DNA of 64,000 nucleotides, taken from Chloroflexota bacterium. GTDB taxonomy: Bacteria; Chloroflexota; UBA11872; VXOZ01. The notes under the pieces are model-generated. The model did no database searches, was not told the origin of the DNA, and worked only from the letters and a program-made list of their open reading frames with translations. Positions within the stretch are counted from its first letter, which is position 1; each line of letters begins with the position of its first letter. Made by a program: the position numbers and the translations under genes. The stretch spans positions 372,001 through 436,000 of the forward strand of contig CATQHC010000009.1 in assembly GCA_958295775.1 (NCBI GenBank), written 5' to 3'. Shown piece after piece: positions 11,968-63,880 of this stretch.

Positions 11968-13218
11968 CTACACGCCGGCCTCCACGCGCTCTTCTGAGAA
12001 AACTGTTCGCGCCAGCGCATCGCGTTCGACGTTCCCAACCAGTCTTCCCCCTTCGTCCACCACGGGAATCCAACCATCGTTGGACCAGGCTTGGGAAAGT
12101 GCGTCTTCAATACACAAGCTGGCAAGCACCGGCTCACACCGGCGGGACACAGCGCGCTCGATGGTGGCATCACCGCTGTCAGCAGCCTGTCGTGTGGCGG
12201 CGCGGGTGATTTCGCCCGCATAGACGCCCTCCGCCAATGCGACAAAGGCCCGATCGGCCCCATCTGCATCCAACGCCGCCAGCGCATCGTTAGGATTTGT
12301 CGCCACGCTCAACTGGACCGCGCATGACTCCATGATGTAGCCCACGGTAACAATCGAACAGGTTCGGACGTCCTGGGTGAAGTCGGCCACGTAATCGTCG
12401 GCCGGATTCGCCAAAATCTCTTCGGGCGTCCCGATCTGCACGATTGCGCCGTCGCGCATGATGGCGATGCGGCTGCCCAGCTTGGTGGCTTCGGCGAGAT
12501 CGTGGGTGATGAAGATGATGGTCTTGTGCATCTGCTCTTGCAGGCGGATGAGCTCATCCTGCATATCCCGCCGAATGAGGGGGTCCAACGCACTGAAGGG
12601 CTCATCCATGAGCAGAATCTCGGGATCGCAGGCCAGCGCGCGCGCAAGTCCGACACGCTGTTGCATGCCGCCGCTGAGGGCCGAAGCGTGGTATTCTTCC
12701 CAGCCGTCCAGCCCGACAACGCGCAGCAATTCGGCCGCTCGCGCCCGCCGATCTTCCCGGGGCACCCCTTGCACTTCCAGGCCCCAGGCCACGTTATCGA
12801 TCACCGTACGGTGCGGCAACAGGCCGAAGTACTGGAAGACCATGCCCGTCTTCTGACGGCGCGCTTCCGTAAGCTCTTCCTCAGTGAGACTGAGAAGGTC
12901 CTCGCCGTCTATGATGACCTGGCCGGTCGTCGGCTCGATGAGGCGAATGAGACAGCGCACCAGCGTGGACTTGCCACTGCCGGAGAGTCCCATCACCACG
13001 AAGGTCTCGCCCTGGTGGACGTCGAAGCTCACGTCGTGCAACGCCAGCACGGAGTCCAGCTCGTCCTGGACCTCGTCCTTGGTCTTGCCCTTAAGCGTTT
13101 CCCCCACGTCAGAGTCGGCGGCCGGGCCGAACACCTTCCACAGACCACGCACGCTTACGCGCACCTGGCCGTTGGTAGAAGCGGAGAGCTTCTGCCCATC
13201 TTCTATAGCTTGGCTCAT
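11968..13218 (-). CDS. Glycine betaine/proline-type ABC transporter ATPase with CBS domains
   Basis: The 416-residue protein is of the ProV/OpuAA type. It has Walker A GLSGSGKS, signature LSGGMQQR, and Walker [15 protein letters not shown]-terminal part from about residue 290 resembles a pair of CBS domains ([17 protein letters not shown]), which in OpuA-type importers sense ionic strength or nucleotides. The N-terminal segment before Walker A is the long form of this subfamily, with the [15 protein letters not shown] insert. It opens the operon, with the permease and binding protein downstream. Osmotic control is inferred from the family only. Confidence 0.9.
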
Positions 13219-13491
13219 GACTACTCTTCATCCTCCCCTGAAGGTACCGGCAGCAAATTGCCGCGGATCGAAGCAATGCAGCTTCAGGATCGCAACATCC
13301 TACCCCACAGTAGCCATAGTCAGGGTACCAAGCTGGTATGCCCCTTGCAAGCCTTTTGCGCGAGAAATCACCCACTAAGGGCGCCGTCAATGGCTGAGGC
13401 AACGAATTCTCCATTGACCATGAGGCGCGGAAAGAGTAATACTGATGATTACGAAACGATACACTCATACGACAGCAAAAGGAGCACATCC

Positions 13492-13728
13492 ATGGCCGAG
13501 AAGCAGCGGCTCAGCATCGAATACTGCACTTCGTGAGGCTATCTCCCGAAAGCCGTCAGTTTGACGGAGCAAATACTGGATAAATACGAACAGAACCTGG
13601 CAAGCCTCGAGCTCATCCCCTCCGGCGGCGGCGCCTTCGAGGTGACCCTCAACAACAACGTCATCTTCTCCAAACACCAAGAAGGCCGCTTCCCCGAACA
13701 CGACGAGGTGCTCAAACACCTGGGATAG
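13492..13728 (+). CDS. SelW/Rdx-family selenoprotein
   Basis: ATG 13492 follows AAAAGGAGCACATCC. After 14 codons the frame meets TGA at 13534-13536, then runs 63 more sense codons to TAG at 13728, for 78 residues with Sec15. The start IEYCTS, then Sec, then GYLPKAVSL, is the SelW CxxU pattern on the first strand-loop-helix of a thioredoxin-like fold. Downstream, GGGAFEVTLNNNVIFSKHQEGRFPE matches the SelW/SelT Rdx fold (family motif GxFEV...L..SK...G.FP). A hairpin follows the TGA at the expected distance. Rdx proteins are small cytoplasmic thiol-redox proteins of uncertain substrate. A long open frame runs into this gene from upstream, but it is a shadow of the transporter ATPase. Confidence 0.9.
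13553..13567 (+). promoter_or_regulatory. Predicted bacterial SECIS element of the SelW gene
   Basis: Five perfect base pairs, CCGUC with GACGG, enclose the loop AGUUU (13558-13562). The loop begins 22 bases after the TGA and has GU at its second and third positions, like the loop of the OsmC element. Confidence 0.7.
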
Positions 13729-13802
13729 TAGTCGGCAGCAAGTCCTCTCTATTCCACATGACTCCATGGACCTGAATGGTGCTCTTCGGCGTCAACATAA
13801 GC

Positions 13803-13842
13803 AGTGCCAGCCCCGCAGATGCGGGAGTTGGCACTTGTCTTT
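13803..13842 (+). terminator. Rho-independent terminator after the SelW gene
   Basis: AGTGCCA pairs with TGGCACT, and the interior CCCGC pairs with GCGGG. TTGTCTTT follows. It ends the SelW transcript and separates it from the AT-richer island. Confidence 0.75.
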
Positions 13843-13958: not shown

Positions 13959-15473
13959 ATGAAAGAACTCCTTCAACATAGTCAGGTACTACAACGCAGA
14001 TGGGCCTTTAGGCGAACTTGGAAGGCTCAGGCGCCAAATCTTCTGAAATCCATGAGGCAGAGGGATCCTGAAGAAAATGCAAGAACCACGCCTCCGCAGG
14101 ATGAGTCAATTAATCTATGCTGTGTTTGGGCAGTGGAATTCTATACTCCTGTACACATGGATCGCCTAGTTGGGAGATTTAGGGACCTAGGGTGGGATAC
14201 AGAATACAATCGCGATCCTATGATGAATCCTGTCAATTTGCTCAACGGATTGCGCCGGTTTCAAAGTGGAGGAGCTTGGCTAAATATTGGATTCCTGCAC
14301 CCTCCAGACTCGAGATCAACATTCGGCAATTCCAGACGCAAGTCAGAGCTGCCAACTGACATTGAGTATGCAAATGCCTGGATGTATGCTGTTACTCCTT
14401 CCCTAATCAGCATCGTTGTATGCTTTGTTCTAAATGAAGACAGGTCCGGTATGTTTGACAGATCCCTAAGGGTGGATCGGCAGACTTTTACATCCCAGGC
14501 CGGAAGTGGAACTCAATATCATGAGCCATGGAAACAGAAGTCTGATGAAATTGGCGAGTTGCGTGAAAAAGTATTAAGCGAACTGCAAACTTGGTTTATT
14601 ACAAATCTTCCAGGGCTGTTTTCGTCCGGACTGCTTGATGGCAACATCCCGACCTGCGAGCTTGTCACGTTACAAGAAGGTAACCCTTTTCCATCTCTAA
14701 CGGAGGAAGAGGGAATTCCACCAGAATACCTTAGGTTACTGGGCCTGAGCCATGACCTAGAAGCTTGGAAAAGCAAGAGCATTCCGAGCTTGAAATTCAG
14801 TGTCGCTCAAGACTGGAGTAACAGCCCTCAACATCATTCGATTCTAGCCGCAAACGTCAATAGGCTGACTGAATCTATCCCAGATGGATACAGTGGAGAG
14901 TGTAGACGGAATAGAATCCTCTTCGTGGACTCTATGATGTGGAAATTGATTGCCATTTGGGCAATTCTGCCCATGTTTGAAGGATATACGCAACACCTTA
15001 GCCGAGTGCGGAGTTCGACCACACTTAGCAACACAACTCTTCAGCCTCCTATTAAAGTACTCAAGAATCTTGGACATCACATCTCATACAGCGTCGACAT
15101 TGCAGCTGTAACGGTTGAATTGGCGAACCATGCTGAAAGGCAGTTTGCTCGTTCTCACGATATTGACCCATTCGAGCCTTGTAATCCCGAAATATATAGG
15201 GAAAAGCTCTCTCTGAGCGACTATCTAAATCAGGTCATAGGTAGACAGGCAAGCTGGCTTCATGAAACGGATGCATCCATTCGTAGCCATTTGACGCAAT
15301 ATGGCACATTGATCGGGGCAACAGAAAGTGTCCGAGTCCAGAAGACAGTGACTCTCTTAACTTGGGTGTTGGTAATGCTTGCCCTTGCAACTCTAGTGGC
15401 TCCCCTCTTGCCAGCGATCGTCTCAGTCGTGTTGCATAGATTCCTTTCATTATTGGGAGAACTTTGGCTTTGA
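13959..15473 (+). CDS. Unknown protein with C-terminal membrane segments
   Basis: I do not recognise this 504-residue protein. It has no signal peptide and ends in a strongly hydrophobic region, about residues 465-500 (TLLTWVLVMLALATLV and a second short stretch), so it is probably tail-anchored with its bulk in the cytoplasm. The central part is mixed, with many Ser, Glu and aromatic residues. Codon use is visibly richer in A and T than in neighbouring genes, which suggests recent acquisition. No strong Shine-Dalgarno precedes ATG 13959; ATG 14051 is an alternative. The next gene, converging from the other side, is a methyltransferase-nuclease, so a defence role is possible but unproven. Confidence 0.6.
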   Translation: MKELLQHSQVLQRRWAFRRTWKAQAPNLLKSMRQRDPEENARTTPPQDESINLCCVWAVEFYTPVHMDRLVGRFRDLGWDTEYNRDPMMNPVNLLNGLRRFQSGGAWLNIGFLHPPDSRSTFGNSRRKSELPTDIEYANAWMYAVTPSLISIVVCFVLNEDRSGMFDRSLRVDRQTFTSQAGSGTQYHEPWKQKSDEIGELREKVLSELQTWFITNLPGLFSSGLLDGNIPTCELVTLQEGNPFPSLTEEEGIPPEYLRLLGLSHDLEAWKSKSIPSLKFSVAQDWSNSPQHHSILAANVNRLTESIPDGYSGECRRNRILFVDSMMWKLIAIWAILPMFEGYTQHLSRVRSSTTLSNTTLQPPIKVLKNLGHHISYSVDIAAVTVELANHAERQFARSHDIDPFEPCNPEIYREKLSLSDYLNQVIGRQASWLHETDASIRSHLTQYGTLIGATESVRVQKTVTLLTWVLVMLALATLVAPLLPAIVSVVLHRFLSLLGELWL

Positions 15474-15567: not shown

Positions 15568-17034
15568 TTAGCGAAATGCAGTTGGCGCATTCGCTTGTGC
15601 CAACTGCGCCATCAGGTATTCCATCGGCCTATCGCCTTTGATACGGTTGCACGAGGAGCACAGCAGTTGCAGGTTACCTATGTGATCGGTACCGCCCCGA
15701 GACTGTGGCACTACGTGGTCTACGTCGAATATCTTGAAGGGGAAGTCCATTTTGCAGCCGTTGCAGACACCCTCTTGCCGTCCGAATAGCACGTGCTTGT
15801 TCTGGCGGTAGTGGATAGGCGCATCAATGTCTGTGCGCTTTGGTATGTCTTCGCGGGAAGTTACGAAGCCGTAGTGGTAGAGACTACCTAGCGCGCTTTT
15901 CAAGCGGAAGTTGACCAATTCCACGGCCTTAGGCGAGAGGTCGATTCCTACCCACTGTCGTCCCAGCGACTCTGCTGCAGCGCAAGCGGTTGCGCATCCA
16001 GCGAAGGGATCTAGGACCACATCCCCACGGTTGCTGGACGCCAATATGACACGCTCCAAGAGCTTTAGGGGCTTCTGGGTCGGAAAGCCTATACGCTCTT
16101 TGGCTTGTGAATTGACCGCACTAATGTCTGTCCAGTTGTTGCTTGGCACTTGACCTGGGTTAGCGTCCAAGTAACGCTTGAGCTGTGGCACCGCCCCCTT
16201 AGTCGCATGGATGAGCATGTCTGCCTCTTCCAATGAGTCTAAGCGCGCCAATACGCTCTCAATCTCCAAGTATCCCGGTATGATGTTTTGGTCAATCCAC
16301 TCAGCATACTTGCCGGATTTCGGAGCTGACCAGCATCGCCCAATGTCTGAAGGGTCATAGTCTCGCCAGATATGCCCACTCTCGCCCGCTGATAGGCCGG
16401 GACCCGTTAGGTTATCCGTCCTATAGCGTCCTCTCTTATCTGAAAAGCTATAGTGACTTTTCACATACGAAGCGGCTAGAGGGGTGCGGATGGCATCAGC
16501 ATTGATAGGCGACACGCCGTAAAAGAGGATCTTGTCACATACATTGCCAAACGTGCGTGAGTCGCTATGCGCGGTCGTTCTTTGCCAATTAATTTCCGCC
16601 TTGAATAGTTTCGCTCCGAATGTCGCGTCCATGAGCATTTTGAGGTAGTGGGACGCTGTAGTATCACAATGTAGGTAAATGCTCCCGGCCTTCTTCAATA
16701 CCCTCCGCATTTCAAGCAAGCGAATTGCCATCATGCACAAGTATGACTGCATGCCCTTGCCGTGTGTCAGTCTGGCCGCCTCCAACAGCTTGTAGATGGC
16801 AGGTTCTTGGTCGGCAATGAGACCCATCCAAGCCACGTCTAGGTCGGATAGAGTCCACGTATCCTTAAAGGCCGCGCCCGCAGCTTTGGAACCTACCGGA
16901 GCAGCATAGTTGCGATTGGAGTTGAAAGGAGGGTCGAGGTAGATGAGGTCAACAGTCTCGCTATTCATGCCGCGCATGATGTCGAGATTGTCGCCAGTGA
17001 AGATGGTGCGGTTAGACCAATTCGGAGTGCCCAT
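15568..17034 (-). CDS. DNA methyltransferase (N6-A/N4-C type) fused to an HNH nuclease domain
   Basis: From ATG 17034 (TAGGTAAT just upstream) the protein has 488 residues. The methyltransferase part shows DPPF at residues 34-37, and later VVLDPFAGCAT and GRQWVGIDL, the AdoMet-binding motif. This order places it in the beta class. The last 70 or so residues form an HNH nuclease: CNGC, FDVDHVVPQSRGGTDHIGNLQLLCSSCNRIKGD, with both CxxC pairs and the catalytic DH present. One protein could thus modify and cut DNA. An upstream in-frame extension to 17370 exists but overlaps the antitoxin gene. The next gene upstream is divergent. Confidence 0.82.
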   Translation of the reverse strand: MGTPNWSNRTIFTGDNLDIMRGMNSETVDLIYLDPPFNSNRNYAAPVGSKAAGAAFKDTWTLSDLDVAWMGLIADQEPAIYKLLEAARLTHGKGMQSYLCMMAIRLLEMRRVLKKAGSIYLHCDTTASHYLKMLMDATFGAKLFKAEINWQRTTAHSDSRTFGNVCDKILFYGVSPINADAIRTPLAASYVKSHYSFSDKRGRYRTDNLTGPGLSAGESGHIWRDYDPSDIGRCWSAPKSGKYAEWIDQNIIPGYLEIESVLARLDSLEEADMLIHATKGAVPQLKRYLDANPGQVPSNNWTDISAVNSQAKERIGFPTQKPLKLLERVILASSNRGDVVLDPFAGCATACAAAESLGRQWVGIDLSPKAVELVNFRLKSALGSLYHYGFVTSREDIPKRTDIDAPIHYRQNKHVLFGRQEGVCNGCKMDFPFKIFDVDHVVPQSRGGTDHIGNLQLLCSSCNRIKGDRPMEYLMAQLAQANAPTAFR

Positions 17035-17103
17035 ATTACCTACGAGGGTAAGCAAGCTATAGAGAAGGGAATAGTCATTGTGTACTGTGGCATTTCTATC
17101 CGG

Positions 17104-17149
17104 TGTACTTTGCCAGCCTCTAGAGATATAGTCTACATTAAACTGTAGA
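17104..17149 (+). promoter_or_regulatory. Possible promoter and operator of the antitoxin gene
   Basis: A perfect inverted repeat TCTACA-TTAAAC-TGTAGA (17132-17149) overlaps a -10-like TATAGT (17127-17132), 25 to 42 bases before the start at 17174. The -35 region (TGTACT) is weak. Phd-type antitoxins usually repress their own promoter through such palindromes. Confidence 0.4.
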
Positions 17150-17173
17150 GACAGAATTACAGGGAGTCTGCAT

Positions 17174-17452
17174 GTGAAAGAATCGGCTACCCAGCGTGTT
17201 TGGACCGTGGCGGAGGCCAAGGCGCGGCTTTCTGAAATCCTGCGGCTCGCGGAATCCGAAGGGCCGCAGCAAATCGGCATCCGCAATCCCTGTGTCGTTG
17301 TGCCCGCCGACGCCTGGCACGCAAAGACCCCGCCGCGCAAACCGCTGGGCCAATGGCTAGTAGAAAACACCCCGCGCGGCGCGAATCTTGAGATTCCCAG
17401 GCGGCGCGGATCTCAACGAGAGATTCCGTTCGCTAACGGAGACACGGAGTGA
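17174..17452 (+). CDS. Phd/YefM-family antitoxin
   Basis: The 92-residue protein begins with the Phd/YefM fold signature (VWTVAEAKARLSEILRLAESEGPQQI, VVVPADAW), a DNA-binding N-terminus that represses its own operon. The C-terminal tail, rich in Arg and charged residues, would wrap the toxin. It starts at GTG 17174 with AGGGAG seven bases upstream. The stop overlaps the GTG of a PIN-like remnant, the classic antitoxin-toxin overlap. The toxin is truncated, so the antitoxin is now orphaned here. Confidence 0.75.
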   Translation: MKESATQRVWTVAEAKARLSEILRLAESEGPQQIGIRNPCVVVPADAWHAKTPPRKPLGQWLVENTPRGANLEIPRRRGSQREIPFANGDTE

Positions 17453-63506: not shown

Positions 63507-63880
63507 TGGTGGAGATGGGGGAGAGTCGAACTCCCCGTCCAAAGCTGTTCTTCCGGCAACCTCTACGAGCGTAGTCAGCTTTTATGTGTCATTCCCAGAG
63601 CACGAGCGGACGAAAACCTCTGAGAACTAGCCTCCGTTTGTCTTTCGCAGTCCCCGAAGGCGGCGGATGCTATCCGCATGGACTGCGGCACTCCGGCTGG
63701 TAGGTCGCCCAAGCTGCGCTCACCGGAGGAAGAGCAGGTGGACGTCACAGCTTTAGTTAAGCTGCGAGAGCAAAATCGTGCTTGTTGGCACTTAAAAAAG
63801 TTGCTACCTGTTTAACGAGGGTGATAGCACCTCGGCTCGCAGTTACGGGCCTCCCAACCCTGTCGAATCCACTCATCCCC
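63507..63880 (-). ncRNA. ssrA: tmRNA (transfer-messenger RNA)
   Basis: A 374-base RNA that rescues stalled ribosomes. The 5' end (63880) begins GGGGAUGAGUGGAUUCGACAGGG, and the 3' end is CAUCUCCACCA with the T-arm GGUUCGA-like GAGUUCGACUC at 63540-63516. The acceptor stem GGGGAUG pairs with CAUCUCC. The tag reading frame, ANKHDFALAA followed by TAA, spans 63789-63757, with the usual AALAA-type end for protease recognition. A TATACT at 63898-63893, 13 bases upstream, may be its -10 box. Confidence 0.93.

Follow-up and report, generated by a model that had tools for sequence, protein, structure and literature searches.

A TGA codon at positions 13534-13536 (forward strand) of the window, the whole 64,000-nucleotide stretch of Chloroflexota DNA analysed here, raises the question of whether it ends a reading frame or is read as selenocysteine (Sec). 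The same codon terminates a mechanically called open reading frame (ORF) of 344 amino acids (12502-13536), the upstream shadow frame to which the initial annotation had drawn attention, and lies inside a complete ORF of 78 codons on the forward strand (13492-13728), with this single in-frame TGA at residue 15, a Cys at residue 12 and a TAG stop, exactly as had been proposed for a CxxU protein. We regard it as close to certain that 13492-13728 is a single-copy SelW-like (Rdx family) selenoprotein gene, in which Sec is inserted at the UGA by way of a hairpin at 13553-13567. This reading draws on the gene itself, its family, the machinery genes of the genome, the conservation of the TGA, selection on the sequence that follows it, a covarying hairpin and a modelled fold.

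Family, fold and conservation across the TGA

The product matches the Pfam Rdx profile (PF10262; 6.5e-24, 84.4 bits against a cut-off of 22.6) over residues 6-76, and the match therefore covers both sides of the TGA. It also exceeds the curated cut-offs of TIGR02174 (70.8 bits, cut-off 34.2) and of its best NCBIfam match, NF041051 (SelTWH_Campy; 95.9 bits, cut-off 88), so that all three profiles bear out the suggested membership of the Rdx family. An AlphaFold2 model, built from a 32-row alignment of selected Sec forms, has a mean pLDDT of 90.5 and has the CxxU motif (Cys12 and Sec15) where the first strand (residues 5-12) ends. The top Foldseek matches of this model were the SelW-related structures 2fa8, 2obk, 2oka and 2p0g (query TM-scores of 0.86-0.92), with scores of about 0.82-0.92 across the bacterial group. 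The model thus indicates that the product has the thioredoxin-like Rdx fold of solved SelW-related proteins. Cys12, residue 15, Ala21, Gly47, Phe49, Glu50, Ser60 and Lys61 are invariant in the 32-row alignment.

The best named relatives of the gene come from Chloroflexota metagenome-assembled genomes, with protein identities of 81-88%; 23 stretches of viral contigs fitted a pattern, none of them coding for a relative. We surveyed 201 genomes, consisting of the organism's own and 200 relatives, and found an Rdx match in 103. The CxxU form occurs in 84 genomes, at 85 loci, every one of which carries TGA three residues past the Cys, and in this survey not one of the 85 ends there, the first observation that would have told against the original proposal. 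Another 31 matches lack an internal stop, and 30 of these have Cys at the site, which puts the TGA in register with the redox Cys of the Cys homologues. Three loci (L057-L059) duplicate L029-L031 and were not counted, and one (L094, from G110, a genome with SelA) was left out since its gene leaves the contig before the CxxU site. One genus relative, G005, gave no Rdx match; its genome is 69% complete.

Within the genus, purifying selection acts on the sequence after the TGA. Over the 63 post-TGA codons, dN ranges from 0.021 to 0.110 and dS from 0.126 to 0.514 in all 10 pairs among five genus members, giving dN/dS values of about 0.13-0.26. Protein and profile searches of the organism's own genome found no second Rdx locus. 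The second adverse outcome that had been envisaged, a Cys-form gene elsewhere combined with an unselected second half here, is accordingly at odds with both results.

These data bear directly on the alternative that the TGA is a true stop, yielding either a small peptide or the end of the 344-residue frame, with the remainder being a decayed Rdx gene. The mechanical ORF does terminate at this codon. However, upstream of the TGA the frame runs without a stop for 402 codons here, compared with only 21, 28, 25 and 57 in four relatives from the genus, and the shadow ORF lies mostly antisense to a gene at 11968-13218 that we take, by eye, to encode an ABC ATPase of the glycine-betaine/proline kind; the shadow frame is therefore considered accidental. 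In addition, all five genus members keep the TGA, the frame that follows it is unbroken in each, with dN far lower than dS, and the Rdx profile match runs across the TGA. The conserved downstream frame already refutes a true stop, to which we leave virtually no chance, and the TGA is treated below as a sense codon.

Sec decoding and its distribution

The genome contains matches to selB (359 bits, cut-off 242), selA (571 bits, cut-off 268) and selD (377 bits, cut-off 125), as well as a tRNA-Sec match (67.1, cut-off 47) that is also called by ARAGORN, with anticodon tca. Judged by this gene content, the organism is able to read UGA as Sec. The SelD gene of this genome (L022; G000:C9:447099-448028) has an in-frame TGA of its own near the N-terminus, in the context C-A-G-TGA-A-G-K-L-G, and SelD is itself predicted to be a selenoprotein.

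Across the survey, SelA was found in 83 of the 84 genomes with the Sec form, in 15 of the 18 Cys-only genomes (G110 left out) and in 68 of the 98 with neither form. Fisher's test for the association of the Sec form with SelA gives 4.8e-8, a value that is only indicative because the genomes are related. The single exception, G026 (L098), has a Sec form with a complete hairpin and no SelA match; as this genome is 77% complete, the missing SelA is probably a gap.

A sense reading of the TGA need not in principle mean Sec, as an open frame under a given code is no proof of Sec insertion, and the UGA might be read as another amino acid through near-cognate suppression or a code in which UGA specifies Trp. 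Several observations argue against this: the alignment of the TGA with a redox Cys, the dedicated Sec machinery in the genome, the near-universal presence of SelA beside the CxxU form, a complete hairpin that is confined to Sec forms, and a tree in which two of the three Cys genes inside the Sec group come from genomes with no SelA match (both described below). We therefore judge decoding as another amino acid to be highly improbable, and Sec remains the preferred reading of residue 15.

A hairpin downstream of the UGA

A five-base-pair SECIS-like hairpin had been proposed for this gene. The hairpin is present, but with six base pairs rather than five: CCGUCA-GUU-UGACGG, at 13553-13567 of the forward strand and within the coding sequence, has a three-nucleotide GUU loop that lies 22 nt past the UGA. 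The bacterial SECIS model as outlined in PMC13188914 specifies a loop of 3-9 nt, a stem of 4-16 bp, a G in the first two loop positions and a distance of 16-37 nt from the UGA, and the hairpin fits this geometry (loop of 3, 6 bp, G first, 22 nt). The model also specifies a minimum free energy (MFE) of -7.5 kcal/mol or lower, the sections of that source cited here giving no folding length. Our hairpin has an energy of -6.5 kcal/mol alone, -7.8 within a 67-nt stretch, and -8.9 to -9.9 when the first 6-13 nt are omitted. Folded from the UGA onwards, the stretch has another structure as its MFE fold (-11.0 versus -7.8 for the SECIS hairpin), and the hairpin enters the MFE fold once at least 6 nt from the UGA start are omitted, as in the ribosome. 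Folding z-scores for this gene's hairpin (-0.26 to 0.05) are no better than chance, and when this gene alone was recoded synonymously, all six pairs also arose in 359 of 2000 cases. With z near 0, we rejected single-sequence folding as evidence for a SECIS; the significance of the hairpin derives from its conservation across genes.

This conservation was assessed in 76 distinct Sec forms, a set that, like the 55 rows used for covariation and the 88-row tree below, includes six loci outside the relatives' set (L060-L065); a further 26 loci are represented in neither the 55 rows nor the tree. All six pairs form in 39 of the 76 Sec forms and in none of the 30 Cys forms, all five lower pairs are kept in 54 of the 76, and the first loop base is G in all 76 Sec forms versus 4 of the 30 Cys forms. 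Among the 55 rows, the covariation score is 0.330 versus 0.202 in shuffled alignments (0 of 500 shuffles as high), 30 stem cells have changed on both sides versus 4.6 in shuffles, and pairing is lost when the partner columns are slid. Two of the five covariation measures were no better than shuffles (both-side-changed pairs, 71 of 500; further pair types, 322 of 500). As the sequences are related, all of these counts represent fewer independent events than rows. Overall, the SECIS suggested for this gene is supported by a hairpin that is conserved, with covariation, in Sec forms.

It is nevertheless conceivable that the hairpin is a by-product of conserved amino acids and codon bias, and that Sec insertion uses a different RNA structure. 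Consistent with this, RNAalifold recovers only 3 of the 6 pairs from the 55 rows at a weak energy (-1.28 kcal/mol), and 15 of the 76 Sec forms hold just 3 or 4 of the 6 pairs, several of which score better with a shifted stem and a loop of CGUGA or GUG. On the other hand, synonymous recoding of the 76 Sec forms loses the stem, leaving on average 8 and at most 15 complete stems in 200 trials compared with the 39 observed, and sliding the partner columns abolishes pairing. Where Ser is encoded at the loop position, its codons are all AGT or AGC (24 and 8, respectively, with the rest of the 55 rows coding for other residues), a choice that keeps the loop G. We thus consider a by-product hairpin unlikely, and favour the hairpin at 13553-13567 as the SECIS of this gene. 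As a means of telling the two forms apart, the published geometry was set aside as too loose: a loose form of the model passes all 76 Sec forms and also 21 of the 30 Cys forms, and a stricter version passes 69 of 76 and 9 of 30, such that the model alone discriminates poorly.

We propose that the ribosome would start at the ATG at 13492 and that, with UGA 13534-13536 in the A site, SelB-GTP-selenocysteinyl-tRNA-Sec, positioned on the hairpin at 13553-13567, would deliver Sec instead of termination taking place. SelB would thus be expected to bind this hairpin, and the full-length protein is presumably synthesized in the organism. The 78-residue product would fold as a thioredoxin-like Rdx protein, with Cys12 and Sec15 closing the first strand and most likely cycling between a reduced state and an intramolecular selenylsulfide; such a redox cycle could serve thiol-disulfide exchange or peroxide reduction, with a cellular thiol as the reductant. 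For SELENOW, work cited in PMC8508763 describes a selenylsulfide at the CXXU and a glutathione-dependent protective role, and the sections of a 2026 review (PMC13188914) cited here give no exact function for bacterial SelW-like members; we therefore suggest a role as a small thiol-disulfide or peroxide-reducing redox protein.

The elements flanking the gene were compared within the genus. A ribosome-binding site, AAAGGAG (13478-13484, forward strand), ends 7 nt ahead of the ATG; each of the five genus members has an AGGAG (here at 13480-13484) 7-8 nt upstream of its ATG, in keeping with the strong ribosome site that had been described. A consensus scan detected a putative promoter, TTGACC-18 nt-AATACT (13414-13443, forward strand), and the pattern TTGACN-N16-19-NATACT occurs at 46-49 nt upstream of the start codon in four of the five members, being absent from L031. 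Downstream of the stop, the expected terminator is matched by a strong hairpin (13801-13838, forward strand; -27.1 kcal/mol, z -4.65), but its T-tract is weak and a terminator consensus scan did not list it. In four genus relatives, visual inspection showed hairpins of other sequence at a comparable position.

The SelW-like gene stands head to head with the ABC ATPase gene, which is also upstream on the other strand in the genus loci L028-L031 and L057-L059. Apart from a weak ATPase hit in L062, no match to this gene was obtained at loci from other genera, and for this reason we rejected the neighbourhood as an indication of function. On the far side of the gene, 13959-15473 is an ORF of 504 amino acids whose product has a hydrophobic C-terminus and which has an 81% identical copy after the selW gene in L057, followed at 15568-17370 by what we take, by eye, to be a DNA methyltransferase gene with an HNH-like C-terminal end. 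The window also contains a tmRNA gene (63507-63880) with the tag ANKHDFALAA.

Sec and Cys forms in Chloroflexota and beyond

A poorly resolved tree (88 rows, 75 columns) separates a group of 27 Cys rows (100/100) from a second group made up of 58 Sec rows and three Cys rows. The 27-row clade comprises L066-L093 except L068 and L070, plus L095, and most of its host genomes have SelA. Two of the three Cys rows within the Sec group, those from G170 and G128, are the ones whose genomes had no SelA match; this fits a history in which Sec decoding was lost and Sec was then replaced by Cys, with the caveat that these two long branches may have been grouped in error. The third, L070 (G183), has other copies alongside it in a genome with SelA. 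Both Sec and Cys forms occur in 8 of the 201 genomes, all 8 with SelA, and the Cys-only line has typical motifs, P-W-x-x-G-[ST]-F-[DE]-V and H-[SA]-M-x-R-[DE]. From these patterns we tentatively suggest, as a possibility to which we give somewhat less than even weight, that Chloroflexota hold two separate SelW-like lines: one with Sec, whose covarying SECIS keeps a constant position, and one with Cys only, which persists in Sec-decoding genomes, sometimes beside the Sec form. The SelW-like family is described in PMC1794560, in the part cited here, as having at most very few Cys homologues in organisms that contain Sec; contrary to this, SelA is present in 15 Cys-only genomes and in the 8 with both forms.

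The SelW-like CxxU family is already known in bacteria, and the Chloroflexota gene is a further member. SelW-like CxxU proteins with a bacterial SECIS were reported in 2005 from the Sargasso Sea set (PMC1088965), followed by ten SelW-like proteins in sequenced bacteria (PMC1794560); the family was the commonest in marine data in 2008, with 427 GOS sequences (PMC2398784), and a 2021 survey (PMC9402790) put its share of marine selenoprotein genes at 11.3%. The present gene shares the profile (PF10262/TIGR02174), CxxU motif, size, fold and in-frame UGA with a downstream hairpin, and differs from these bacterial relatives in its host only, a member of a phylum for which the sections of these papers cited here name no SelW-like protein. 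In epsilonproteobacteria, annotation is reported to have overlooked SelW genes altogether, and selenoprotein genes to share a 5/6-bp hairpin downstream of the TGA (PMC4607533). The Campylobacter jejuni SelW (CJnc60), which was unannotated, is likewise a protein of about 80 amino acids with a UGA read by tRNA-Sec, and its translation past the UGA is documented by Ribo-seq and proteomics (PMC11955535); it belongs to another phylum and has been seen experimentally, whereas the Chloroflexota gene is known from sequence. Agrobacterium Atu0228 (2fa8) and Streptomyces SAV_2001 (3dex), two Rdx proteins with solved structures, are related to the product in sequence (E-values of 4.3e-13 and 6.2e-12, respectively), but have Cys where it has Sec in the alignments. 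Mammalian SELENOW shares the CxxU (PMC8508763) and the fold (TM-score of 0.65 to mouse SelW, 2npb) and is remote in sequence (E-value of 0.016 to 2npb); eukaryotic SECIS elements lie in the 3' UTR (PMC1088965), unlike the hairpin here, which is inside the coding sequence. Literature searches on the phylum and selenoproteins gave no paper with a title dealing with SelW in Chloroflexota, which is not proof of absence.

As the protein's family is well known, this is a real but ordinary find. It adds a small Sec gene, of a kind cut short at the UGA by mechanical ORF calling, and it reveals the Sec form to be common in our Chloroflexota set, a phylum for which PMC1794560 lists three selenoproteins of three families, unnamed there. 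The 76 Sec and 30 Cys forms together yield a covarying SECIS that could serve gene finders as a model. If the two lines are real, the division between them would be one of function, not of selenium supply, and the view of scarce Cys homologues expressed in PMC1794560, as cited here, would need amending.
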